Source of the DNA: Paraphaeosphaeria minitans
Taxonomy: Eukaryota; Ascomycota; Dothideomycetes; Pleosporales; Didymosphaeriaceae
Direction of reading: 5' to 3'
Length of the DNA stretch: 64,000 bases
NCBI GenBank assembly: GCA_015832175.1
Contig: WJXW01000005.1
Span: forward strand, 1,860,001-1,924,000
A model generated the notes under the pieces. That model was not told the DNA's origin. It searched no databases and was given only the letters and a program-made list of their open reading frames with translations. Below, piece by piece: positions 1,930 through 61,963 of this stretch. How positions within the stretch are numbered: the stretch's first letter is position 1; every line of letters starts with the position of its first letter. The translations under genes and the position numbers were made by a program.

Positions 1930-4900
1930 ATGATACGCCTCCTTAAGTGCCTCCCTGACGACGACGGCTTCGAGCTAGCCTCTTTCGACGATGAACTCAC
2001 TCCTCCGTACGCTATCCTCTCACACACCTGGGTAGAAGGCCAAGAAGTCACGTATAGTGAGCTACTGGCTGGTTCAGGCATGAACAAAAGCGGCTACCGC
2101 AAAATCCGCTTCTGCGGCGAGCAAGCTACTGCAGATGACCTCGAATACTTCTGGATTGACACCTGCTGCATCGACAAGTTGAACAGCGTTGAGCTAAGCA
2201 CAGCAATAAACTCCATGTTCCGCTGGTACCAGAACGCAAGCAAATGTTATGTATACTTATTAGACGTCTCGGTGCCCCAGCATATCTATGATGCTCAGAC
2301 CTCCCGCGCATGGGAACCAGCTTTCCGGCAAAGCAGGTGGTTTACCCGAGGTGAGTGAAACAGTGCTTGTAGGGTCCAGTATTGCTAAAATCACACGAGG
2401 ATGGACTCTTCAAGAACTGCTTGCGCCTGCCACTATTAAATTCTTCTCGGTGGATGGCAAGCTGTTAGGCAACAAGGTCTCGCTAGAGCTGGAGATACAT
2501 GACATTACTGGCATTCCTGTCAGTGCATTGCGTGGCCAGAATCTCGCTGAATTTAGCGTTTCCGAGCGAATGAGTTGGGTGGCGAAACGTACCACGAAGT
2601 GGAAGGAAGATAAGATTTATTGCCTCCTAGGAATTTTTGGCGTTTTCTTACCCCTTAACTATGGTGAGGGGGAAGATTATGCGACCCAGCGGTTGCAGGA
2701 TGAGATACAGAAGCGCCGGCAGAGATGGACACAAACGCGTCTACACGACTTGCCTAGTACGTCGTTCTCCGTTTCAACCAGCATACGCGTGCAGCTTATC
2801 CCGTACAGTGTCCTCATCGCTCCCGTTCACCCGAAACGAGCTCTTTGTTGGTCGGGAAAGCCAGCTCCAGGAAATCGAACAAAATCTCCTCTCACATAAC
2901 ACACACCGACGCATGGCAATTCATGGACTAGGAGGCTGTGGGAAATCAGCGCTTGCACTCGAGTTCGCGTATCGCGCAATAGCGACGAACACCAGACGTG
3001 AAATATTTTGGGTGCCTGCAATGAGTCAAGAAAGCGTCGAGCTTGCCTTCCGAGAGATCGCAGTCCGCCTGCGTATACCGGGAATAAGTGACGGTGACGC
3101 GAATCTAAAGCAGCTCATGAGGGAGACGCTAAGCTCAACGAATTCGCACCATTGGCTAATGATCGTTGACAACGCCGACGACACAAGCATATTGCTGGAG
3201 TCCGATAGCGAAGACCCCAAGTCAACCCCGCTGATCGACTTCATCCCACATAGTGACAAAGGATCGATCCTTTTCACAACCCGCAGTAGGAAAGCCGCCA
3301 TTGCTTTATCTCAGACTTGCACACTTTCGCTGGACGACATGGGTGAAACTGAGGCTCGACAGCTGCTCATGAATCGAACGACAAACAAGTCGCTACTAGA
3401 TGACGCGCCCGCTGTCAACAAGTTGTTGGAAGCACTCACGTATCTTCCACTTGCAATAGTACAAGCGGCCGCTTTCATGAACCAAAACGACATATCAGCT
3501 TCCAAATATGTGTTATTGCTACAGAATGCCAGCGCGGAAGCTGAGATCTTTAGCGAGCGATTCGAAGATACTACTCGCTACCACCGTACGGATAGTACTG
3601 TTGCAAAGACTTGGCACATCTCTTTCGAGCACATCCGGAGACAAGACCCTCTCGCAGCAGAAAACCTTTCGTTCATAGCATGCATCGATCGAACCGGCAT
3701 TCCTCAGTCGCTGTTACCGCCGGGGGGATCCAAAGTGCAGCATACTAAAGCGCTTGGAACGTTGACAGGATATGCATTTCTTACTGAGCGTCAGCAAACT
3801 GTCCCGGGATTCGATGAAGAGAGGTATTTTGATATGCATCGGCTAGTGCACATGGCGTTGAGCTGGTGGCTGGAGGTACACAGTCAGCGAACAACCTGGG
3901 TAGGCATAGCAGTTGCCCGGGTCAAGGAACTTTTACCGTTCGGCGAGTATGATACAAGGGCGGTATGGACGACGTACCTCCCGCACGCGATCCATGTAGT
4001 AGGAATGGAGGGTGCTAGAAGCAGCCCAACTGGCGCTGTGCTTTTAGGATACATAGGGCGATGTCAACAAGCCAGTGGGCAATATGCTGCAGCAGTGTTA
4101 GCGTGCCAAGAAGCATGGTCGTTGATGAAGGACATGCTTGGGCATGAGCATCCCGACACACTCATTAGTGCGAGCTGCCTTGGATCGGCACTGGAGGGCC
4201 AGGGCAGATACGATGATGCGGCGGCGATTAACTATCAGATATTAGAGGCTAGCGAGAGGGTGTTTGGCCGAGAGCATTACCACACGCTCACCAGTGTCGC
4301 CCAGCTTGGTTCGACACTCTTGAAACAGGGAAAATACAAGGAGTCAGAGAAACTGGCTCGTCGAGCACTAAAAGGAAGAGCGAAGGTGCTGGGCCAAGAT
4401 CATGGCTACACAATCAACAGCATTGGCCAACTTGCGACGACTCTGTCCAGCCAGAGAAAGTACAGAGAGGCAGAAAAAATGGAGCGACGAGCCCTGGAAG
4501 CAGCAGAGAACCTTTTTGGTCGAGAGCATCCTTTTACTCTTTCCTTCCTTAGCGCGCTTGGGTCGGTGCTCGAAAGGCGTGGGAAGTATAGTCAGGCAGA
4601 ATTATTCGAACGTCAAGCACTGGAATTGAGAGAAAGGTCGCTTGGGCAAGAGCACCCTGCAACACTTCAAAGCGTCGGCCAGGTTGGGTTGGTGTTGGCA
4701 GGCCAGAGAAGATTCGAAGAGGCGGAGGTCGTCGTTCGTCGAGCGGTAGAAGGGTTTGAAAAGGTACTTGGGCGAGAGCACCACTACACGCTTATCAACT
4801 TGGAATTGCTTGCTTTTGTTCTTACCAAGCAGCATCGTATCAAGGAGGCTCTCCTTTTACTACAAAGGGCATGCGCTGGTTACTCCGCCGCCCTTGGAGA

Positions 4901-9896: not shown

Positions 9897-10414
9897 ATCC
9901 AATGGATACCAAAATACATGTTGATGGTTGTCTAAGAATACGCGGATCAATTATACACAGTGTCGCGTAGGCTTAGAGCGAAACAGCTCGCAGTGGTGCG
10001 CACGTTGAGTACCCAGGTGGAGAGGGGCAGGTAGAGAGAGTCGCGGGGCGAGACCAAGTAACACGCAAACGACACCCATACTTACCGCGAGTAGCCGAAG
10101 GAAGAGATTTAGCCAATTCTTCTAAAGTCGATGAAGTGAATGAGGTTCTGAAAGTGATGGCGAAGCAGAATGTCGTGATGTGGTCTCTACACTAGTGCAT
10201 ATCCGCTCATTTGAACCCCAGCCACCTACCCCGCTCACAAGCGAGATTGTGGGCCCGCAAATCTCGTCACCAATTTGTCCGGCAACGCATCTTTTCCGGT
10301 GACACATCCAAAGGGAGCGGTCTTCACAGCTGTATAAATTTACATGTGTATATAGACTATTAACTCCACGAGCTTCAGGAACAGCACATCATCGTCTGTT
10401 AAGATATTTCTGAC
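9897..10414. other. Intergenic region between the DPP V start and tRNA-Ile
   Basis: This is the 5' flank of the minus-strand DPP V gene and of the plus-strand tRNA. No reading frame with support. A TATA-like run (GTGTATATAG) lies near 10346-10355, about 60 bp before the tRNA, where fungal Pol III genes sometimes have an upstream TATA element. Confidence 0.35.
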
Positions 10415-10521
10415 AGACCTGTGGCGCAGTGGTAGCGCGCCGTTCTTATAAGGCTCGTCAGATCCTTATGACTGCACATCTAGCAATGCGGATGCCGTGG
10501 GTTCGAACCCCACCAGGTCTA
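10415..10521 (+). tRNA. tRNA-Ile(UAU) with 35-nt intron
   Basis: The acceptor stem AGACCTG (10415-10421) pairs perfectly with CAGGTCT (10514-10520), followed by discriminator A. T8 and a GCGC/GCGC D stem follow. The anticodon stem starts at CCGTT (10440-10444) and the loop CTTATAA carries TAT as 34-36. The T arm is GTGGG-TTCGAAC-CCCAC. An intron of about 35 nt (10451-10485) follows position 37, the canonical site. It contains CCTTAT, able to pair with ATAAGG across the anticodon, as in other eukaryotic pre-tRNA introns. A-box TGGCGCAGTGG and B-box GGTTCGAACCC are intact. Pair 31-39 would be T-T. tRNA-Ile(UAU) decodes the rare AUA codon and is typically intron-containing in eukaryotes. Confidence 0.93.
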
Positions 10522-10547
10522 ATTGTTGAAATCTTGCGAAGACTTCC

Positions 10548-10552
10548 TTTTT
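10548..10552 (+). terminator. Pol III terminator of tRNA-Ile
   Basis: A run of five T residues begins 27 nt after the tRNA 3' end, in a C/T-rich context. Confidence 0.7.
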
Positions 10553-10581
10553 GCTCTTCTTCATTCGATAAGGCGCAGCAT

Positions 10582-10601
10582 ACTCCCTTTAGAAAGGGAG
10601 T
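10582..10601. repeat. Perfect 9-bp hairpin
   Basis: ACTCCCTTT and AAAGGGAGT are separated by AG, immediately before the repeat-derived DNA begins. It may be incidental or mark an old insertion edge. Confidence 0.5.
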
Positions 10602-10607
10602 TGAATC

Positions 10608-10803
10608 TGTAACGGGTAGATCACGATATTGTTATGGTGTTGTGGAATCTGGCGCTAAGGCCCTATAAGGGGCCTATGCGCCAAGCGAGCTAGCTGCGCA
10701 AAACCTACACTACGCCCTAACTTTCTAGAACTTAAGTGTTATTCTACTTAATACTATTAAGTTATCCTTTTACTATCCTCCCTAGTGTGAAGTAAATACT
10801 ATT
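10608..10803 (+). repeat. Direct repeat copy 1 (possible LTR fragment), lightly RIPed
   Basis: This segment aligns with 11243-11433 apart from C-to-T/G-to-A type differences. For example the block GGCGCTAAGG followed by GGGGCCTATGCGCC here matches AGCGCCAAGG followed by GGGCCTATGCGCT there. This copy keeps more G/C, so it is less mutated than its partner. It marks the outer edge of the repeat block beside the tRNA gene. Confidence 0.7.
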
Positions 10804-11242
10804 ACTATTATAGGCTAGCCTTAGAGAGTAAATAGAACTATAAGTGCCAAATATAAAGAATTAATTCGAGATGTTAAGTCTCTATAGGGGGTGTGTATTA
10901 CTTATAAGAAAAGTTTTTTTTAGTAGGTCTAGATAGTTTTTTTCTTTAAGATCCTTTTCAAGGCTAATGCTATACCTTAGCGTATTATATAATTTAGACA
11001 TTACTTAATTTAAAATATTTTATACCTAAAAAGTATATTTTAGAAATCTAGAGAATAGGGTGTAATTGTAAGATAGTAGTATTATAGGCGTTATTTTTCT
11101 ATTAGGGACTTATTATTATTTTAGTAAAAGTTTTTTTATAGTGTAAAAGTAGCCCTAAGACAGTCTTATATATAGTAAGGGCCTTTATTAGGCGGTTCGC
11201 TTATTTACTTTATATTATAAGGTAATAAAACAGCGCTCCTAT

Positions 11243-11433: not shown

Positions 11434-12743
11434 GCCTATAACTAGACCTTATATAATAATACTTTATTTATAATAGTCTAAGGATAGCTCCTAGAGTTAT
11501 ATAAGTCACTAGTAGGGGGCAGACCTTACCTAAAGCCCCTAAAGGCAGCGAAGACCCTTCTATCTAATATATTAAAGGAGAGCTAATAACGCGTAACTTA
11601 AGCCTACCTTTAATACTAAAGTAGTATATTCTAGTTACTAAAAAAAACATAATAAGCTTTATACTATATATTAATTTTATACCTTAAAAGATAAAATCTC
11701 CTAACTTAAAAGTATAAACTAAACCCCTAGCGTAGCAGCTACTACTAAGAATATTAAAATTATACTTACTAATATATATAAGTAGGATACACCTATAGTG
11801 TATATAGTAATATATATTAAGTGTACACTTTAACCGAAGGACCCTATTAAATATAGAGGTAAGAAACTTAAGGAATATTATAAATTCTTCTATTCCTATA
11901 AAGTGGCCTTTTACCTCTTAATATAAGAATTTATGCATAATAGAGATAAGGTTATCTAGGTAATATAGTACCTTATAGGCAACCTAAGAGAACTATAGTG
12001 TATATATACTATAAACGCACCTTTAAAGCTAAGGGAGAAATACCTATCTAGAAGTACTTTAAGTAGTATATACTTAACTTACTTTTAGACCTAGTAAATT
12101 ATAGTCTAGAAGTAGCTATAGCGTATACTTAGGTAATATAGTAAAAAAACTAAACTATTTACTCCTATGTAACTTACCTTAATATTCTTAAAAATTAACT
12201 TATACCTTACACTAAAAAGTAAAGGGTATAGCACCTCTTCTTTAAGCTTAAACCTAAGCTATAGAGGGCTATTACTAACTACTATTAGGTGCCTATAACT
12301 AAGGAAGACCTTATTACTTTAGGCTCTATACTTAAGCGAAACCTACGCTACGCACCTATAACGTAGGAGTTAAGCCTATGTTATATATTAAAGAAATCTA
12401 AGGATACTACACTAAACTACTAAATATCTAAAGGTAATAGTAAGACTTAGGATAAAAAAAGTATTACCTACTATAAGTATAAAGAGGAGGTAAAGGCTAG
12501 AGGATAAAGGGTAACCTTCTAGACCTTCTAGTACCTTCTCTCCCCTAGTACTAGTTACCTAGAATAGTAGAGACTAGAGTAATAGAGGGTAGATCGAACG
12601 TAGTTAAATAGAGTAATAAAACCTTAGGTATAGGCTTAGAATTACTATCTAGGATAGAGAGTACACGTAGAAGGTAACTCTCCTTATATATACACAGTAG
12701 AGATTCTAGAGTATTCTACTTAGTAGTTCTCTACTATCTATAA

Positions 12744-17200: not shown

Positions 17201-19350
17201 CCTTATCTTTTCTAAAAACAAATTAGACCACACTAAGTATATATAAATAGTACTAGAAGCACTAGACAAAGTATGCCTTTGTATTAAACTTAAGAAATGT
17301 AAGTTTAACGTTAAATAACTTAAATTCCTAGGATATATTATTACTATAGAAGGAATTAAGATAGCACTAAGTAAAGTTAAATATATTAAGAACTGGCTAA
17401 TACTAAAGACAGCTAAGAATATCTAAGAATTCTTAGGATTCTATAGATTTAACTAACAATTTATCTAAAATTACGCAAAGGTTATAATACCCTTAATAAA
17501 TTTTATAAAGAAGGACGTACCCTTTAAATAGACAAATAAGTATAGAATATTATTCTAACTCCTTAAAATAGTATATATTATAGAACCTATTCTTATTTAT
17601 TTTAGAAGCGATAAACTACTACGCTTTAAAATAAACGCTAGCGATCTTACGCTAGGCGCCTACGCTAAATAAAAATATAATAGCAAATAGCACCTAATTG
17701 CCTATTACTTATATAAATTTAATAACGCCAAAACACGATATAATATACACAATAAAAAACTCTACGCTATTGTTAAAGCCTTAAAGCACTAGAGGATTTA
17801 TACGCTTAGTTACTTAACACTAGAAATTTATATAAATCATAAGAACCTTCTAAAGTTTATAATAATAAAAGAACTTACGCTATAATAATAAAGATAGTTA
17901 TAAACTATAGGGTAGTATAAGTTTAAAATTATCTATGTAGCTAGAAAAGAAAATAACAGAGCAGACGCTCTTAGCTAATAAAGTAATCTAGCAAGAGAAA
18001 AGGTAAAAACTTTCTCTATAATCCTTCGCAAAGCCAAAGATAGATCTTTAGAGCTAATAGTAGAACTAAATTAACTTTTAGTAATTAACTAAGAAGTTCT
18101 AGAACATCTACAGACCAAGATTATCTAACAATACTATAATAACCCTATATACGGACACCTAGGCATTACAAAAATAATAGAACTTATTTAATAGAATTAC
18201 ACCTTAAAAGGAATTAAGGAAACTGTAATAACTTATATTTATAAATATGTAGAATGCTAGAGAAATAAACACAGTATATATTTTAAATATAGAAAGTTGT
18301 CAGTAATTAGAATACTAACAGCACTATAGGAAGACATCGCTATAGATTTTATTATAGGAATTCTAAATTCTAAGAATCTAATAATAGGAATTAAATATAA
18401 TAGCATACTAGTAATAGTCTACTAACTAACTAAGTATATTAAGCTTATTCTATGTCTTAAAAGAATAACAGTAAAGGAACTCGCTTTTCTTATCCTAGAC
18501 TAACTAATTAGACACCACAGAATCCTAAAAACAATTATTAGCAATAGAGACAAACTCTTCACGTTAAATTATTAGATAACACTTATAGCACTACTTAGAA
18601 CAAAACAAAGGCTATTAATAGCTTACTATCTATAAATAGACAGATAGACAGAACGTATAAACTAAACTATAGAAACGTACCTACGCATCTACTATAATAG
18701 TTAAAAGAATAACTAGATCTTATTACTACCTATAGCATAGTTAGCCTATAATAATAAAGTATTAGCAGTATTAGGACATACACTGTTCTATATAAACTAC
18801 AGAAGACACCCACATCTCTTTAATTAATAATTTCCTACGACAATTAAAGCAAAAGAAGCTATAGATATAGTAGAAAATATAAAGAAAATACACTAATAAC
18901 TCTAAGAGAATCTTAAGAAAGCTTAGTAGCAATTAATTTTATATTAAAATAGAAAATAAAAATAGCACCTTAGCTAAAGAAGGGGGATAAAGTATATCTA
19001 CTTACAAAGAACCTTTAAACCTAAAAGAAAAAACATAAGAAACTAGATTATATTAAGGTTAGACCATTTTACATTTCTAAGTAAATATTACTAGTAAACT
19101 ATAAGTTAGAACTACCGCTAGATGCAAAGATACACCTAGTATTTCACGTATTACTACTAGAACTAGTAGACCCTAATACACTAGTTAAAACCACCTTCTA
19201 CTACCAGACTAAGGAAGAAAATAAATTTAAGGTTAAAAGAATTCTAGAATATAATTAGTATAATAATATATACCTTATTAAGTAGAAAAGCTACCTACAT
19301 AGCGAAAACACCTACGAACTAAAAAATAATCTAGGAAACTGTTAGTAAAA
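14280..19350 (+). pseudogene. Chromovirus A gag-pol, RIP-degraded
   Basis: A single broad plus-strand coding region with conceptual gag, CCHC knuckle (about 15052-15098), protease with an ALID-x-G-type site near 16130, RT with the YIDN form of the YxDD motif at 17186-17200, RNase H, integrase with an H-x-H/C-x2-C zinc finger near 18150-18260 and a chromodomain containing a YLIKWKSY-like motif near 19270. Tens of TAA/TAG codons interrupt it. No plausible frame-restoring splice exists, so it cannot be functional. Confidence 0.9.
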
Positions 19351-19383
19351 GATTAAGGAATTCTATTAGAAGTATAAACACAC

Positions 19384-19863
19384 CTAGGAGAATTACAGTA
19401 CTAACGCTATAGTGTCTACTATATTAAGCGTTAACTATATTACTATAGAGTAACTAACAGTTGCTACAGTAGCAGGATAATTAATAGTATCTATATTTAT
19501 ATCCTTACTATCTGCAGTTATTTCTGTAACTAGATATAACGTCTTCTTACGAGCACGCTCTTTAGCCTAAGCTAGTATTTTCTTATTTTATAATAACTGC
19601 ACTATTAGGAGAAATTACGCCTTCTTATTTTTTTTAACCTTCTTCTTGTACTCCTTGCGAGTTTTATCTAGCAATAACTAGCTTATATTTACACATAGAT
19701 AACCTAAGCGAATATATTTAGAACACTTTAAACCTAAATCTAGTATAACGTAGCAAATAGAACTTTTAAAACTACAGTTAATGTAAGAGTTCTTTGTAAT
19801 AATATTAGCTTCTTAGATCTTGCGATATAATTAATGTTTTTAAATAGTAGAGTTGCTAGGCAT
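19384..19863 (-). pseudogene. Antisense Zn2Cys6/coiled-coil ORF of chromovirus A (RIP-degraded)
   Basis: Opposite to gag-pol, an ATG at 19863 opens a frame of 159 codons ending at TAG 19384, interrupted only by TAA/TAG codons. Residue 27 onward has spacing C-x2-C-x6-C-x9-C-x2-C-x6-C. In this copy Cys 1 and Cys 5 read Tyr (TAC, TAT), and Cys 2, 3, 4 and 6 are TGT/TGC. The related frame at 61484-61963 has the identical length and shows TGT at Cys 1. The second half (LKCSK, then IRLG, then LC) is typical of GAL4-type zinc clusters. A Lys/Glu-rich stretch (KTRKEYKKKVKKNKK) and a C-terminal tail follow. It ends just after the chromodomain. A regulator role is inferred. Confidence 0.65.
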
Positions 19864-27640: not shown

Positions 27641-28051
27641 TGTTAAATCCAAGAGGGTAGCTAGTCCTAAAGGGTTAAGGTTAGTTCTTAGGCAGGAGTA
27701 CTTACAGGAGGTGGAAGGTCTTATTAATATAATAGTATCTTGCGAAGTGTAACAAGTTAACAATTTAGTCTACTAGAATCTAAATAATAGATTAATAAAC
27801 AGATTAAACACAAGTATAGAGAGCCTATCCTTGCGTTCCTATATACTAAGGCTACTCTACTGCTTAGTGCCACTAAGTAACTAAGCACCTTATATAACTA
27901 GCTCTACTACTTAGTGCTGCTAAGTAACTAAGCACATTACGTAACCTAATCTAAGTTACTTAGCGTCTCTTTATTATATTTATAACCTTATTGTTACTTT
28001 ATTATACCTTTATAAGCGCCTAAGTCCTATATTATTACCTAGTACGTAATA
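27641..28051 (-). repeat. 3' LTR of chromovirus B
   Basis: 411 bp. The outer end (27641-27750) keeps more C/G than the same end of the 5' LTR, whereas the inner U3 is heavily mutated. Confidence 0.93.
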
Positions 28052-28088
28052 TTATCCCCTCCCTTTCTATTCTTTGTCCTAAACAATT

Positions 28089-28691
28089 ATGCCTACTAAC
28101 TATAATTCTACAAAGCGTTGTTATAGCCTTATCTCTACTATTAAAAACTACAAAGTAGTTATAGTGTTAAAGTGCTCCTTCTACAAGTCGTATTCCTATA
28201 TTTATAAAGTCTATATTAGCTTAAAGAAGTGTAGTAAGTGTTAGAAATAAGGCTTAAAGTATAATATAGCTATTACTAGGAATAAGTTCTTACAGTTAAT
28301 TACTAAGAAGAAGAAATTAGAGATGTAAATATTAAAAGCGTAAAAAGAATAGGACATAGTGTTTAAAGCCCTACATATAGCGCGTATAAAAGAGAATTAG
28401 TTATTAAAATAATTAGCGTAGAATAAAAAGTGTGCTAGTGAGGTTATCGCAGTAGAGAGTACTGCGCTAATAAAGTTAGAGTTAGAGAAGGACCTAGCCT
28501 ATTCTACTTAGCCTACTAGTCTGGCTAAACTTAGCACGTCTATATAGTCTATAATAAACAACCTGCCTCTAGAGTTCTAGAACAATTCCTTAGCGTTACT
28601 ATCTTAAGTAAGTCTATTAATAGAATTCTTTAATCTTTTACTAACAGTTTCCTAGATAGTTCTTTAGTTCCTAAGTGTTTTCACTGTGTAA
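28089..28691 (+). pseudogene. Antisense Zn2Cys6/coiled-coil ORF of chromovirus B
   Basis: ATG 28089 opens 200 codons to TAA 28689-28691, broken only by TAG/TAA. Residue 29 starts the pattern C-x2-C-x6-C-x8-C-x2-C-x6-C, with C1 TGC, C2 TAC, C3 TAT, C4 TGT, C5 TGT and C6 TAT here. The orthologous frame in G shows TGT at C6. Downstream are basic and Lys/Glu/Leu-rich stretches (TKKKKLEM, then LELEKDLAYST) compatible with a coiled coil. The frame begins just inside the polypurine tract and its end overlaps the chromodomain in antisense. The same length (603 nt) and both ends occur in G. Confidence 0.68.
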
Positions 28692-28739
28692 GTAACCTTT
28701 CTACTTAACAAAGTACGCGTTATTATACTAATTATATTC

Positions 28740-31700
28740 TAGAATTCTTTTAACCTTAAATTTGTTTTCTTCCTTAGTCTAGTGGTAAAAGGTGGTTTCA
28801 ACTAGTGTATTAGGGTCTGCTAGTTCTAGTAGTAATACGTGGAATACTAGATATATCTTTGCATCTAGTAGTAGTTCTAACTTATAGTTCACTAGTAATA
28901 TTTGCTTAGAAATGTAAAATAGTCTAACCTTAATATAATCTAGTTTCTTGTGTTTCTTCTTCTAAGTTTAAAGGTTCTTTGTAAGCAGATATACTTTATC
29001 CCCCTTTTTTAGCTAAGGTGCTATTTTTTATTTTTAGTTTTAGTATAAAATTAATTGCTACTAAGCTTTCTTAAGATTCTCTTAGAGTTACTAGTGTATT
29101 TTCTTTATATTTTCTACTATATCTATAGCTTCTTTTGCTTTAATTATTGTAGGAAATTATTAATTAAAGAGATGTAGGTGTCTTCTGTAGTTTACATAGA
29201 ACAGTGTATGTCCTAATACTACTAATACTTTATTATTATAGGCTAACTATGCTATAGGTAGTAATAAAACCTAGTTATTCTTCTAACTATTACAGTAGAT
29301 GCGTAGGTACGTTTCTATAGTTTAGTTTATACGTTCTGTCTATCTATCTATTTATAGATAGTAAGCTGTTAATAGCTTTTATTTTGTTCTAAGTAGGGCT
29401 ATAAGCGTTATCTAATAATTTAACGTAAAGAGCTTATCTCTATCACTAATAATTATTTTTAGAATTCTGTAGTATCTAATTAGTTAGTCTAGGATAAGAA
29501 AAGCGAGTTCCTTTACTATTATTCTCTTAAAACATAGAATAAGCTTAACATACTTAGTTAGTTAGTAGACTACTACTAGTATACTATTATATTTAATTCC
29601 TATTGTTAGATCCTTAGAATTTAGAATTCCTATAACAAAATCTATAGCAATATCTTCCTATAGTGCTGTTAGTATTCTAATTACTTACATCTCTCTATAT
29701 TTAAGATATATGCTATATTTGTTTCTTTAGCATTCTGTACATTTATAGATATAAGTTATTACAGCTTCCTTAATTCCTTTAAAGGTGTAATTCCTTTAGA
29801 TAAGTTCTATTGTCTTTGTAATGCCTAGGTGTCTATACATAGGGTTATTATAGTATTGTTAGATAATCTTAGTCTGTAGATGTTCTAAAACTTCTTAGTT
29901 AATTACTAAAAGTTAATTTAGTTCTACTATTAGCTCTAGAGATCTATCTTTAGCTTTGTAAAAGATTGTGGAGAAAGTTTTTACTTTTTCTCCTACTAGA
30001 TTACTTTGTTAGCTAAGAGCATCTGCTCTACTATTTTCTTTTCTAGCTACATAGATAATTTTAAACTTATACTACCTAGTAGTTTACAACTATCTTTATT
30101 GTCATAGTATAAGTTCTTTTATTATTATAAACCTTAGAAGGTTCTTATAATCTATATAGATTTCTAGCGTTAAGTAACTAAGCGCGTAAATCCTCTAGTG
30201 CTTTAAAGCTTTAACAATAGCGTAGAGTTCTTTATTATATATGTTATATTATGTTTCAGCGTTATTAAATTTGTATAAGTAATAGGCAATTAGGTGCTAT
30301 TTACTATTACATTCTTATTTAGCGTAGGCGCCTAGCGTAAGATCGCTAGCGTCTATTTTAAAGCGCAGTGGTTTATTATTTCTAAAATAAACAAGGATAG
30401 GTTCTATAATATATACTATCTTAAGGAGTTAGAATAACATTCTATACTTATCTATCTATTTAAAGGGTACGTCCTTCTTTATAAGATTTATTAAAGGTAT
30501 TATAACCTTTGCGTAATCTTAGATGAATTGTTAGTTAAATCTACAGAATCCTAAGAATTCTTAAATATTCTTAGCTATCTTTAGTATTAGCTAGTTCTTA
30601 ATGTATTTAACTTTACTTAGTGCCGTCTTAATTCCTTCTGTAGTAATAATATATCCTAGGAATTTAAGTTATTTAACGTTAAACTTACATTTCTTAAGTT
30701 TAATACAAAGGCATACTTTGTCTAGTGTTTCTAGTACTATCTATACATGCTTAGTGTGGTCTAATTTGTTTTTAGAAAAGGTAAGAATATTATCTATATA
30801 CGCAATAATAAATATGTCTAGATGTTTATAGAGTACGTTGTTAATAAGTGCTATAAAAGCTACTAGTGCGTTTATAAGTTTAAAAGGCATAACCTTATAT
30901 TTAAATAGTCTATAGCGTAATTAGATCGCTGTTTTCTATTCTTCCCCCTTTTTAATTTATATAAAGTAGTAACTGTCTCTTAGATCTATTATCGTGAATA
31001 TCTTAGCTTAAGATAATTAATCTCGTAACTCTATAATGTTTAGTAGTAGATATTAGTTCTTTATTGTTATATTATTAAGTTATTAGTAGTTAACGCATAG
31101 TCTATCTAATCTATCCTTTTTCTTAATAAATATAAAAGGGCTTACTACTAGTAACTTTAATAGTTATATATATCCTTTCTTAAGGTTTGTCTTAATAAAA
31201 TCACGTTCTTTAAGGAGTTCTTCTCCTATCTTACTATATAGTAGTCTAAAGGGTGGCGTCTTCTCCTTTTCTAGGTCTATCATAAAATCCTAGGGTTAAT
31301 ATTCTAGTAGATTTGCTTTTCCTCCTTTTTTATAAACATGTGTGTCTATTTCCTGTACTCTTTTAGTAAGGTAAGAGGTGTGCTATTATCCTCTTTTTTA
31401 CACATCTTAACCTAGTGGTTCCTACTAGCGTTTACTAAAGTGTGTTTCCGTTTTTTAACTATTTATTGCGGTATTATATTGTTAATAACTCCCTTATCTA
31501 CTATTATTTTTAATTAATACGTAGGCTTTACTTACAATACATAATTATAGCGTTTAAATAATATTTTCTTTGTACTCTAGTTAATCTGCGGGTTGTGTAT
31601 TATTAACTAAGGTAATTCTAAGACTAACTTATACTTAGATCCTAGTAAGACATCTAAAGTAAGTTCCTCTCTATGTCCTTAGACTATTATTATGGTAGTA

Positions 31701-33815: not shown

Positions 33816-34226
33816 TGTTAAATCTAAGAGGGTAGCTAGTCCTAAAGGGTTAAAGTTAGTTCTTAGGCAGGAGTACTTATAGGAGGTAGAAGGTCTTGTT
33901 AATATAATAGTATCTTATAAAGTGTAACAAGTTAATAATTTAGTCTGCTAGAATCTAAATAATAGATTAATAAATAGATTAAACATAAGTATAGAGAGCC
34001 TATCCTTGCGTTTCTATATACTAAGGCTGCTCCGCTGCTTAGTGCTACTAAGTAACTAAGCACCTTATATAACTAGCTCTGCTACTTAGTGCCGCTAAGT
34101 AACTAAGCACATTACGTGACCTAATCTAAGTTACTTAGCGTCTCTTTGTTACGTTCGTAACCCTGTTGTCGTTTTATTACACCTTTATAAGCGCCTAAGT
34201 CCCACGTTGTTACCTGGTACGTAACA
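33816..34226 (-). repeat. 5' LTR of chromovirus B
   Basis: 411 bp. U3 (about 34020-34226) has two approximately 50-bp units with GCTTAGTGCTACTAAGTAAC-type inverted motifs. The outer 80 bp (ending TTACCTGGTACGTAACA) are nearly free of RIP. Confidence 0.93.
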
Positions 34227-40733: not shown

Positions 40734-41188
40734 TGTTAAGTCTAAGAGGGTAGCTAGTCCTAAAGGGTTAAAGTTAGTTCTTGGGCAGGAGTACTTATAG
40801 AAGGTAGAAGGTCTTGTTAATATAATAGTATCTTATAAAGTGTAATAAGTTAATAATTTAGTCTACTAGAATCTAAATAATAGATTAATAAATAGATTAA
40901 ATATAAGTATAAGAAGCTTATTCTTACGTTCCTATATACTAAGTAGTCCCACACTTCCCAGAATCCTATATGTCCTAGAGTCCTATATGTCCTAGAGTCC
41001 TATATGTCCTAGAGTCTATGCGGGCGAGTCCTACGCGTCCTAGAGTTCCTATATAGGCGAGGCCTATGCGGTCCTTAGGACCCTTAGAACCTATAACTTA
41101 TTATCTAACTACTTAGTTAGTTAACTCTAGTAAACTAGTAGTTTAATAAGCTTGCGCTCTACTACTTATACATAGCTAGATCCTAATA
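40734..41188 (-). repeat. 3' LTR of chromovirus D
   Basis: 455 bp; begins TGTTAAGTCTAAGAGGG and ends GATCCTAATA. It is followed by the minus-sense polypurine tract TTATTCTCCCCCTCT. U3 has three or more tandem TCCTATATGTCCTAGAG units (about 40970-41016). Confidence 0.92.
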
Positions 41189-41233
41189 TTATTCTCCCCC
41201 TCTAAGCTTAATATCCTTATAAGTTAACTACTT

Positions 41234-41860
41234 ATAAAGTTATTATTTTATTCTATTTAATATTACTATAGTTAAGCTAATTATCTTAAGAAAGACTACG
41301 TTTTTGTAATAATTGCCTATTTATACTACGCTAAGAAGAAATACGCTTATTATCTTTCTTCTTTATACTTTTAGTGTACTAACTGCGTTAGGTAAGGAAA
41401 CTAGAAGTATAAGCCTAAAAAGATCCCTTTACTAGATTATTTAAAAATAAATACTAAAATAGAGAGGTTAGAGAAGTTAGAGGCTAAAGAAGAGATAAAG
41501 CTTTATATTAAAAAAGAGCTAGCTAAAGTAGCTCTCCTTTACACTTATTAGGCGTAAGAGAAAATAGCGCGTTTACGTAATTAGTAAAAGAAATTACGTT
41601 AGAAGAAATAAGAATTGTTTAATTATAGCATAAGTACTATAGACAAGTTAGAAGCGCTTAAGGCGTAGAAAAAGTTAGCGTAAGCTACTGTGTTAATAAA
41701 TCCTAACACGCTATTAGGCGCTAAGGTAATTAACTAGTCTATTTTATAGGCTAGCCCTTATACTAGTAGTAATTTCTAGATACGTCCTAGTTGTCTCTTT
41801 ATAATTTCTAGCGTCTAATTATAGAAGTTGTTTATCTATTATTAATAGTTAGATAGGTTT
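41234..41860 (+). pseudogene. Antisense Zn2Cys6/coiled-coil ORF of chromovirus D
   Basis: An open frame (only TAA/TAG stops) runs on the plus strand, antisense to D pol. If it starts at ATA 41234 (one transition from ATG), the first Cys position is residue 29, as in B. The pattern is C-x2-C-x6-C-x8-C-x2-C-x7-C at 41318, 41327, 41348, 41375, 41384 and 41408. Positions 4 and 5 are TGT/TGC and the other four are TAT/TAC. A strong heptad-like region follows (KIERLEKLEAKEE, then KKELAKVALL). The end is not clear because several TAA/TAG occur. Confidence 0.5.
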
Positions 41861-58260: not shown

Positions 58261-58809
58261 AAGATTAAAGAATTCTATTAACAGACTTACCTAAGATAGT
58301 AACGCTAAGGAATTATCCTAGAACTCTAGAGACAGGTCGTCTATTGTAGACTATATAGACGTGCTAAGTTTAGCTAGACTAGTAGGCTAAGTAGAATAGG
58401 CTAGGTCCTCTTCTAACTCTAACTCTATTAGCGTAGCACTCTCTACTGCGATAACCTCACTAGCACGCTTTTTATTCTACGCTAATTATTTTAATAACTA
58501 ATCCTCTTTTGCACGCACTATATGTAGGGCTTTAAACACTACGTCCTATTCTTTTTACGCCTCTAATATTTATATCTCTAATTTCTTCTTTTTAGTAATT
58601 AACTGTAAGAACTTATTCTTAGTAACAGCTATATTACACTTTAAGCCTTATTTCTAACACTTACTATACTTCCCTAAGCTAATATAGACTTTGTAAACAT
58701 AAGAATACATCTTATAGAAAGAGCACTTTAACACTATAACTACTCTGTAGTTTTTAATAGTAGAGATAAGGCTGTAACAACGCTTTATAGAATTATAGTT
58801 AGCAGGCAT
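58207..58809 (-). pseudogene. Antisense Zn2Cys6/coiled-coil ORF of chromovirus G
   Basis: Same start (ATG at 58809), same stop codon and same 603-nt length as the B frame. Cys pattern C-x2-C-x6-C-x8-C-x2-C-x6-C, with C1 TGC, C5 TGT and C6 TGT seen directly and C2, C3 and C4 read as TAT/TAC. C4 is TGT in B. A following Lys/Glu-rich stretch is shared with B (TKKKKLEM, then RAKEDW). Two independently RIPed copies keep the frame length. Confidence 0.68.
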
Positions 58810-60862: not shown

Positions 60863-61317
60863 TGTTAAATCTAAGAGGGTAGCTAGTCCTAAAGGGTTAA
60901 GGTTAGTTCTTAGGCAGGAGTACTTATAGAAGATAGAAGGTCTTATTAATACAATAGTATCTTATAAAGTGTAATAAGTTAATAATTTAGTCTACTAGAA
61001 TCTAAACAATAGATTAATAAATAGATTAAATATAAGTATAAGAAGCTTATTCTCGCGTTCCTATATACTAAGTAGTCCTACACTTCCTAGAATCCTATAT
61101 ATCCTAGAGTCCTATATGTCCCAGAGTCCTATATGTCCTAGAGTCTGTGTGGGCAAGTCCTACGCGTCCTAAAGTTCCTGTATAGGCAAGGCCTGTGCGG
61201 TCCTTAGGACCCTTAGGACCTATAACTTGTTATCTAACTGCTTAGTTAGCTAACTCTAGTAGACTAGTAGTCTATTAAGCTCACGCCCCGCTGCTCGCGC
61301 GCGGCTGGATCCTAACA
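60863..61317 (-). repeat. 5' LTR of chromovirus D
   Basis: 455 bp with the same tandem units (about 61083-61145). Its outer end (61270-61317, with GCCCCGCTGCTCGCGCGCGG) is strikingly GC-rich and un-RIPed. The matching part of the 3' LTR is AT-converted. Confidence 0.92.
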
Positions 61318-61483
61318 AAAATAAATTTAAGGTTAAAAGAATTCTAGAATATAATTAGCATAATAACACGTACCTTATTAAGTAGAAAGGCTACCCACAT
61401 AGCAAAAACACCTAGGAACTAAAACATAATCTAGGAAACTATTAGTAAAAGATTAAGGAATTCTATTAAAAGTATAAACACAC

Positions 61484-61963
61484 CTAGGAGGATTATAGTA
61501 CTAACGCTATAGTGTCTACTATGTTAAGTGTTAACTATATTACTGTAAAGTAACTAACAGTCACTATAGTAGTAGGACAATTAATAGTATCTACATTTAT
61601 GTCCTTACTATCTACAGTTATTTCTATAGCTAGATATAACGTCTTCTTATAAGTATACTCTTTAGCCTAAGCTAGTATCTTCTTATTTTATAATAACTGC
61701 ACTATTAGGAGAGATAACACTTTTTTATCCTTTCTAACCTTCTTCTTATACTCCTTGTAAGTCTTATCTAGCGACAACTAGCTTATGTTCACACACAGAT
61801 AACCTAAGTAAATATATTTAGAACACTTTAAACCTAAATCTAGTATAACGTAGTAAATAGAACCTTTAAAACTATAGTTAATACAAGAGTTCTCTATAAT
61901 AATATTAGCTTCTTAAATCTCGTAATATAATTAATGTTTTTAAATAGTAGAGTTACTAGGCAT
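61484..61963 (-). pseudogene. Antisense Zn2Cys6/coiled-coil ORF of C'
   Basis: Same 480-nt length and ends as the A frame. Cys 1 TGT, Cys 4 TGT and Cys 6 TGT are seen directly, with Cys 2, 3 and 5 as TAT/TAC. Between A and C', five of six cysteines are directly observed. Confidence 0.65.

Follow-up and report, generated by a model that had tools for sequence, protein, structure and literature searches.

Three chromovirus families of the fungus Paraphaeosphaeria minitans appear to encode a Zn2Cys6-type protein in antisense

Our analysis of a 64,000-nucleotide stretch of the Paraphaeosphaeria minitans genome (contig WJXW01000005.1, positions 1860001-1924000; G000:C5:1860001-1924000 in our numbering, hereafter the window) indicates that three related chromovirus (Ty3/Gypsy) families, represented by elements B and G, H, and A and J, carry an antisense accessory gene between pol and the 3′ long terminal repeat (LTR). 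Its product of about 160-190 residues would begin with a binuclear zinc cluster of the Zn2Cys6 type, which a short linker joins to a single helix of about 85 residues. We regard it as very likely that this is a protein-coding accessory gene of the Zn2Cys6 type, and we give a probability of roughly 0.6 to the explanation as a whole, in which autoregulation of the LTR is the most likely, though less certain, role of the protein. The core of this reading, an antisense Zn2Cys6-type gene with a coiled-coil-like region behind the cluster, had been proposed for B and G from the letters of the DNA alone (hereafter the sequence-only reading). It is borne out by an open copy with six cysteines in the sister family H; the families H (41219-41779) and A/J (from 19863 and 61963), which have the same layout within the window, had escaped that reading.

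The window is AT-rich from about 11 kb onward (guanine-plus-cytosine (GC) fraction 0.26-0.34) and contains many repeats. Repeat-induced point mutation (RIP) dominates the variation among these elements: in 40 genomic B/G copies, 1491 of the 1511 alignment cells that differ from the commonest letter are transitions. The antisense frame of B, which the sequence-only reading extended to 28691, starts, as that reading had it, with an ATG at 28089 (+), and the 3′ LTR, its limit read from the sequence, ends about 37 nt away. The second copy, G, is 92% identical to B in DNA and has its ATG at 58809 (-), the frame running 58809-58207. Neither frame is open; each contains 14 internal stops, all of them TAA or TAG. 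Searches of the genome (47.45 Mb in 30 contigs) returned at least 150 matches for B, at least 150 for H and 143 for A/J, pieces included.

The motif of B reads C29-x2-C32-x6-C39-x8-C48-x2-C51-x6-C58, with tyrosine at many of these places, and its spacing conforms to the six-cysteine rule of the Zn2Cys6 cluster, C-x2-C-x6-C-x5-12-C-x2-C-x6-8-C. We compared 81 distinct B/G copies, drawn from 92 loci that each have more than 300 aligned sites (12 from divergent subfamilies); one or two rows are unaligned at each cysteine column. The predicted spacing is present, and the six columns hold cysteine and tyrosine in 71/8, 11/68, 6/73, 69/9, 63/16 and 63/17 copies, with a single serine in the fourth column as the only other residue. 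Each of the six columns is directly seen as cysteine in some copy, where the sequence-only reading had counted four. Neighbouring tyrosine columns vary with histidine (codons 12, 35 and 42, codon 12 also with one arginine and one cysteine) or with cysteine and arginine (codon 37), so that a tyrosine is not always a former cysteine. Codon 11 is another column of cysteine and tyrosine, and codon 21 holds tyrosine only.

When 53 kb of RIPed DNA were scanned in six frames with a Zn2Cys6 pattern that accepts either cysteine or tyrosine, eight matches were obtained, of which seven fall within the five antisense frames: at 19785 (-) in A, 28173 and 28182 (+) in B, 41318 (+) in H, 58725 and 58716 (-) in G and 61885 (-) in J. 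The eighth, at 11743 (+), does not fall in an antisense gene of this kind, and we attribute it to chance. The random expectation, from 60 random sequences, is a mean of 1.6 and a maximum of 6. With a narrowed spacing, chosen after the families had been seen, five matches remain, one per antisense frame (random 0.33, maximum 2).

Since RIP makes no transversions, we used transversions as the signal of selection. Over codons 1-163, columns of the distinct B/G copies that contain both purines and pyrimidines are distributed over the three codon positions as 15/13/40 (p 4.6e-5), and as 6/1/23 (p 1.7e-6) if two or more copies are required for each class. The same counts are flat in the LTR (12/15/12 and 7/7/3), and pol in its own frame gives the usual coding pattern (23/18/37 and 5/2/13). 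The antisense frame of B/G was thus under purifying selection, and this in a region outside pol, where the sequence-only reading had proposed to look for it.

In the sister family H, an un-RIPed copy shows directly, when it is compared with the RIPed copies, that the tyrosine-for-cysteine reading and the reading of the stops are right. This open frame is the weakest of the at least 150 H matches listed and lies at locus L106 (G000:C19:335400-344900), with a GC fraction of 0.54-0.55. It begins with an ATG and occupies 186 codons at 1948-2508 (+), tail-to-tail with the end of pol at 2514-3431 (-), from which it is separated by 5 nt without overlap. The edge of the LTR lies about 30 nt before the ATG (about 1917, read from the sequence), with the polypurine tract between them. 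The gene of L106 is therefore placed between the stop of pol and the 3′ LTR; the gene of B has the same place, with an approximate border to pol. The pol end of L106 contains the C-terminal chromodomain of the integrase that marks chromoviruses (PF00385, E 7.3e-19) and SH3_Tf2-1 (E 4.5e-17), and the window elements are assigned to the chromoviruses by resemblance of their translated text. The cysteines of the natural H protein are spaced C-x2-C-x6-C-x8-C-x2-C-x7-C. When 14 distinct RIPed copies are set against the natural frame, G>A and C>T account for 1926 of 2034 changes, and the stops of the RIPed copies fall at codons for glutamine (109 cases), arginine (68), tryptophan (41) and tyrosine (1); transversions are too few for a column test in this family (0/0/1 columns common to half of the copies; cells 1/2/20). 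The un-RIPed copy by which the sequence-only reading wished to judge the cysteines is thus available for family H, with an open frame; none was found for B/G among the at least 150 scored matches listed, and no open A/J copy was found among 143 scored matches. In the RIPed copies of A/J, cysteine occupies the six columns 5, 2, 1, 16, 6 and 14 times, otherwise tyrosine (16 rows used of 17). Beside the un-RIPed fragment, positions 927-1105 and 1471-1649 of L106 form a 179-nt inverted repeat, 99% complementary, with its arms 365 nt apart.

Among 5.8 billion proteins searched, the natural H protein has 14 relatives at E <= 0.01 (of 694 candidates), which are 44-98% identical to it; 13 derive from jgi, ena or lgn sources and one from NCBI. 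All 12 full-length rows keep the six cysteines unchanged, and the full-length relatives are 44-72% identical. The truncated P0011 has tyrosine at the second cysteine; the zinc part is missing from both P0013 and P0015. P0013, the NCBI entry, is a hypothetical protein of 106 residues from P. minitans itself, with 98% identity over 57% of the query. Its gene model covers the helical part without the zinc cluster, and element genes of this kind may stand in annotations as short hypothetical proteins. AlphaFold predicts a zinc-cluster-like N-terminus followed by a helix of about 85 residues (75-160 in the P0001 model), and no other Pfam domain was found after the zinc cluster. In a profile comparison, 13 rows of the family aligned with 20 Zn_clus domains of the host with a score of 22.3 (E 3e-4 for one comparison), and 20 shuffled controls reached at most 11.9. 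The RIPed sequences themselves gave no match in two protein searches with RIPed frames or in a Pfam scan of two frames with masked (X) positions, and scans of viral contigs and genome contigs with the alignment of the relatives also found no match.

Several observations weigh against this reading, and the first group concerns the frame. In the 40 copies, the antisense frame has 18 stop columns against 17-37 in the other frames, and 6 columns with a stop in all copies against 10-23 (the best other frame has 17 columns, 10 of them fixed); openness alone is unconvincing because the count of stop columns hardly beats the best other frame. All 79 copies with a letter at codon 52, which lies inside the B motif, have a stop at this codon. 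The zinc part taken alone has no significant periodicity, at small numbers (7/6/8 and 4/1/7). The periodicity at position 3 is common to one frame of the opposite strand, and since that frame has the same third position, the strand is settled by homology and not by the transversion test. Positions 28589-28691 are without periodicity in either the antisense or the pol frame (10/11/10 each), so that the border between the two genes is approximate. The second group concerns the domain. The search for Zn_clus (PF00172) that the sequence-only reading had suggested yields matches only below the Pfam cut-off of 21 bits: among 11 proteins scanned, ten of them with a zinc part (P0015 being without), the domain is listed in four at 12.2-17.5 bits and is not listed in seven. 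For P0001, PVL_ORF50 scores as well as Zn_clus (E 0.027 and 0.029). Because the scores stay below the cut-off, we call the protein Zn2Cys6-type and not a formal member of the Pfam family. When the PDB is searched by sequence, LAC9 appears only at E 0.2 and 0.24 and ranks below unrelated chains; Foldseek by itself is weak, with Leu3 as the best match (E 0.7, probability 0.30), and the four top rows of a further structure comparison are unrelated and located on the long helix. The hhalign probability is only 17.5 for the relatives against the host domains, and the match of B to the natural family is weak (E 0.009, probability 4.4). Finally, with regard to the LTR as a target, pairs of CGG half-sites are not enriched in the un-RIPed LTR remnant (18 against 10.4 expected; 57 of 500 random sequences reach 18).

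The gene of B most likely ends at codon 164, giving an extent of 28089-28580 without overlap with the chromodomain, because the constraint ends at codon 163 and because of where the natural stop of family H lies. Although 80 of 81 copies have a stop at codon 164, this count alone does not single it out, since other columns are nearly or fully as fixed (codon 52 in 79/79, 153 in 79/81, 189 in 79/80 and 193 in 78/80). The exact 603 nt given by the sequence-only reading are probably an artefact of RIP, as 61 of 80 copies have a stop at the TAG of codon 201, and the same applies to the overlap with the chromodomain end. We rejected such an overlap as improbable from the stop columns, though neither frame is constrained at 28589-28691. 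Transversion columns are most frequent in this segment (rate 0.30, compared with 0.13-0.14 on both flanks), although the chromodomain end is expected there. As a separate observation, the frame of the gag-pol strand at offset 1 has 17 stop columns, similar to the antisense gene, with which it has the third codon position in common. The features of the window are collected in Table 1.

Table 1. Features of the chromovirus elements in window coordinates
Feature	Position	Strand	Remarks
Antisense gene (RIPed) of element B	28089..28580	+	163 codons and probable natural stop at codon 164
Zn2Cys6 motif of B	28173..28262	+	codons 29-58; C-x2-C-x6-C-x8-C-x2-C-x6-C
3′ LTR of element B	27641..28054	-	upstream of the antisense gene; right edge about 28051-28054; putative promoter place
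5′ LTR of element B (approximate)	33816..34226	-	limits approximate
Chromodomain and C-terminal pol tail of element B (approximate)	28590..28775	-	pol end near 28590-28601; by-eye alignment to the natural L106 pol end, and stop columns
Antisense gene (RIPed) of element G, family of B	58318..58809	-	end by analogy with B
Zn2Cys6 motif of G	58636..58725	-	pattern match at 58725
Antisense gene (RIPed) of element H, second family	41219..41779	+	start codon reads ATA; limits by alignment to the open L106 frame
Zn2Cys6 motif of H	41318..41410	+	C-x2-C-x6-C-x8-C-x2-C-x7-C; only Cys or Tyr in 14 RIPed copies, two of six Tyr in all 14
Long-helix region of H (coiled-coil-like)	41441..41698	+	matches residues 75-160 of the natural protein, by alignment
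Antisense frame (RIPed) of element A, third family	19306..19863	-	ATG at 19863; lower limit provisional
Zn2Cys6 motif of A	19693..19785	-	C-x2-C-x6-C-x9-C-x2-C-x6-C; Cys or Tyr throughout in the 16 of 17 rows analysed
Antisense frame (RIPed) of element J, family of A	61403..61963	-	from 61963; lower limit provisional
Zn2Cys6 motif of J	61793..61885	-	pattern match

The gene, whose ATG is separated from the edge of the LTR by about 30-37 nt, would be transcribed inward from the 3′ LTR. The long helix may serve dimerisation, and the zinc cluster would be expected to bind nuclear DNA, most likely the LTR of the element itself, which would make the protein an autoregulator, by positional analogy with the antisense accessory genes of retroviruses and plant elements; we put a role as DNA-binding regulator of the LTR at slightly less than even odds. 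More tentatively, several fungal chromovirus families might each encode their own antisense GAL4-type regulator, a homodimer reading CGG-like sites in the LTR and switching the element on or off, and thus a fungal counterpart of the antisense regulators of retroviruses that is made from a type of transcription factor widespread in the host.

The main rival to LTR regulation is a role in nuclear import or integration. As a nuclear accessory factor for retrotransposition, the protein would bind DNA or chromatin and help with import, tethering or integration beside the chromodomain, which we consider possible and rather unlikely. The same protein evidence and the recurrence of the gene in three families speak for it, and none of our tests distinguishes it from regulation of the LTR; most Zn2Cys6 proteins whose function is known are, however, transcription regulators. 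The antisense product of maize Grande is nuclear, and it has been suggested to act in the manner of the accessory proteins of retroviruses (PMC7264820). A host Zn2Cys6 gene captured by the elements, with a product acting on host genes to their benefit, seems improbable to us. The domain does align with Zn_clus domains of the host, but there is no close host gene among the at least 150 places scored with the natural H protein: the other 149 listed all contain internal stops and reach down to 47% identity (host genes could score lower), and the presence in three families points to an old resident gene. Still further from what we observe is the proposal that the antisense RNA alone matters, for example by setting off or dampening RNA silencing, and that the protein is incidental. 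Silencing can draw on antisense transcripts of retroelements (PMC7264820; PMC10648671), but constraint by codon position, six invariant cysteines among the relatives and an open frame of 186 codons are unexpected of a non-coding RNA, and we rejected it on the codon constraint. A chance frame that owes its zinc-cluster look to Tyr-rich RIPed DNA has on its side the many tyrosine codons of such DNA, the weak openness and the one pattern match in eight outside such a gene (11743), but, with the other seven in the five antisense frames and all six cysteines directly seen, it is refuted by the un-RIPed open copy and the protein relatives.

Further features of the window lie apart from the antisense gene. 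A 300-nt LTR block is common to B/G and H, at 71-74% identity to the H copy (27641-27940, 33816-34115, 40734-41033 and 60863-61162). At about 10000-11000 there is a sharp border in GC fraction, from about 0.5 to about 0.28 in the RIPed repeat region. At 10415-10521 (+), Rfam matches a tRNA of 107 bases, perhaps with an intron (53.6 bits, gathering threshold 29), where ARAGORN in its bacterial setting reports none.

If the antisense gene does encode a recognisable DNA-binding domain, some fungal "hypothetical" proteins would belong to retroelements, and elements and host regulators would have one domain type in common. Such a domain would allow a concrete and cheap test of its role, as assay formats and site logic for zinc clusters are well known.

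Antisense genes at this place are already known, and the view of the sequence-only reading that such a gene is not a described standard component was overstated; what appears new in the literature searched is the zinc cluster in one of them. The gene brtn of Botrytis cinerea resembles ours as an antisense gene of a fungal Ty3/Gypsy element, and it is described as an extra gene that Boty-like Ty3/Gypsy elements carry in antisense (Zhao et al. 2011, Virology 417:248, as cited in PMC8365987 and PMC7264820). The present gene differs in occurring in three families of a fungus that is probably of another class (Dothideomycetes) than Botrytis. In the literature searched, with some result lists covered in part and some sources as excerpts, we found no fungal LTR element with an antisense-encoded zinc cluster. 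Antisense accessory open reading frames are also described for the plant elements Grande (gene23), RIRE2, Retand (with TRP28) and PvRetro13; they have the same place and orientation, and nuclear or DNA-related products have been proposed for them, whereas they belong to plant elements, Retand is not a chromovirus, and the available text of these sources mentions no zinc cluster (PMC7264820, PMC11963269). From retroviruses of the human T-cell leukaemia virus (HTLV) type, whose antisense gene has its promoter in the 3′ LTR (PMC7264820), we borrow the model of an antisense promoter in the 3′ LTR, as a positional analogy with no claim of homology. Compared with fungal Zn2Cys6 regulators, the present protein has a longer loop (x8-x9) and an SSL conserved among the relatives of family H; it carries no further Pfam domain, scores below the Pfam cut-off and is encoded by a retroelement. 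With Gal4, Put3, Ppr1, Leu3 and Hap1 it has in common an allowed spacing of the six cysteines, basic residues after the second cysteine and, as far as the prediction goes, two short helices, followed by a helix.
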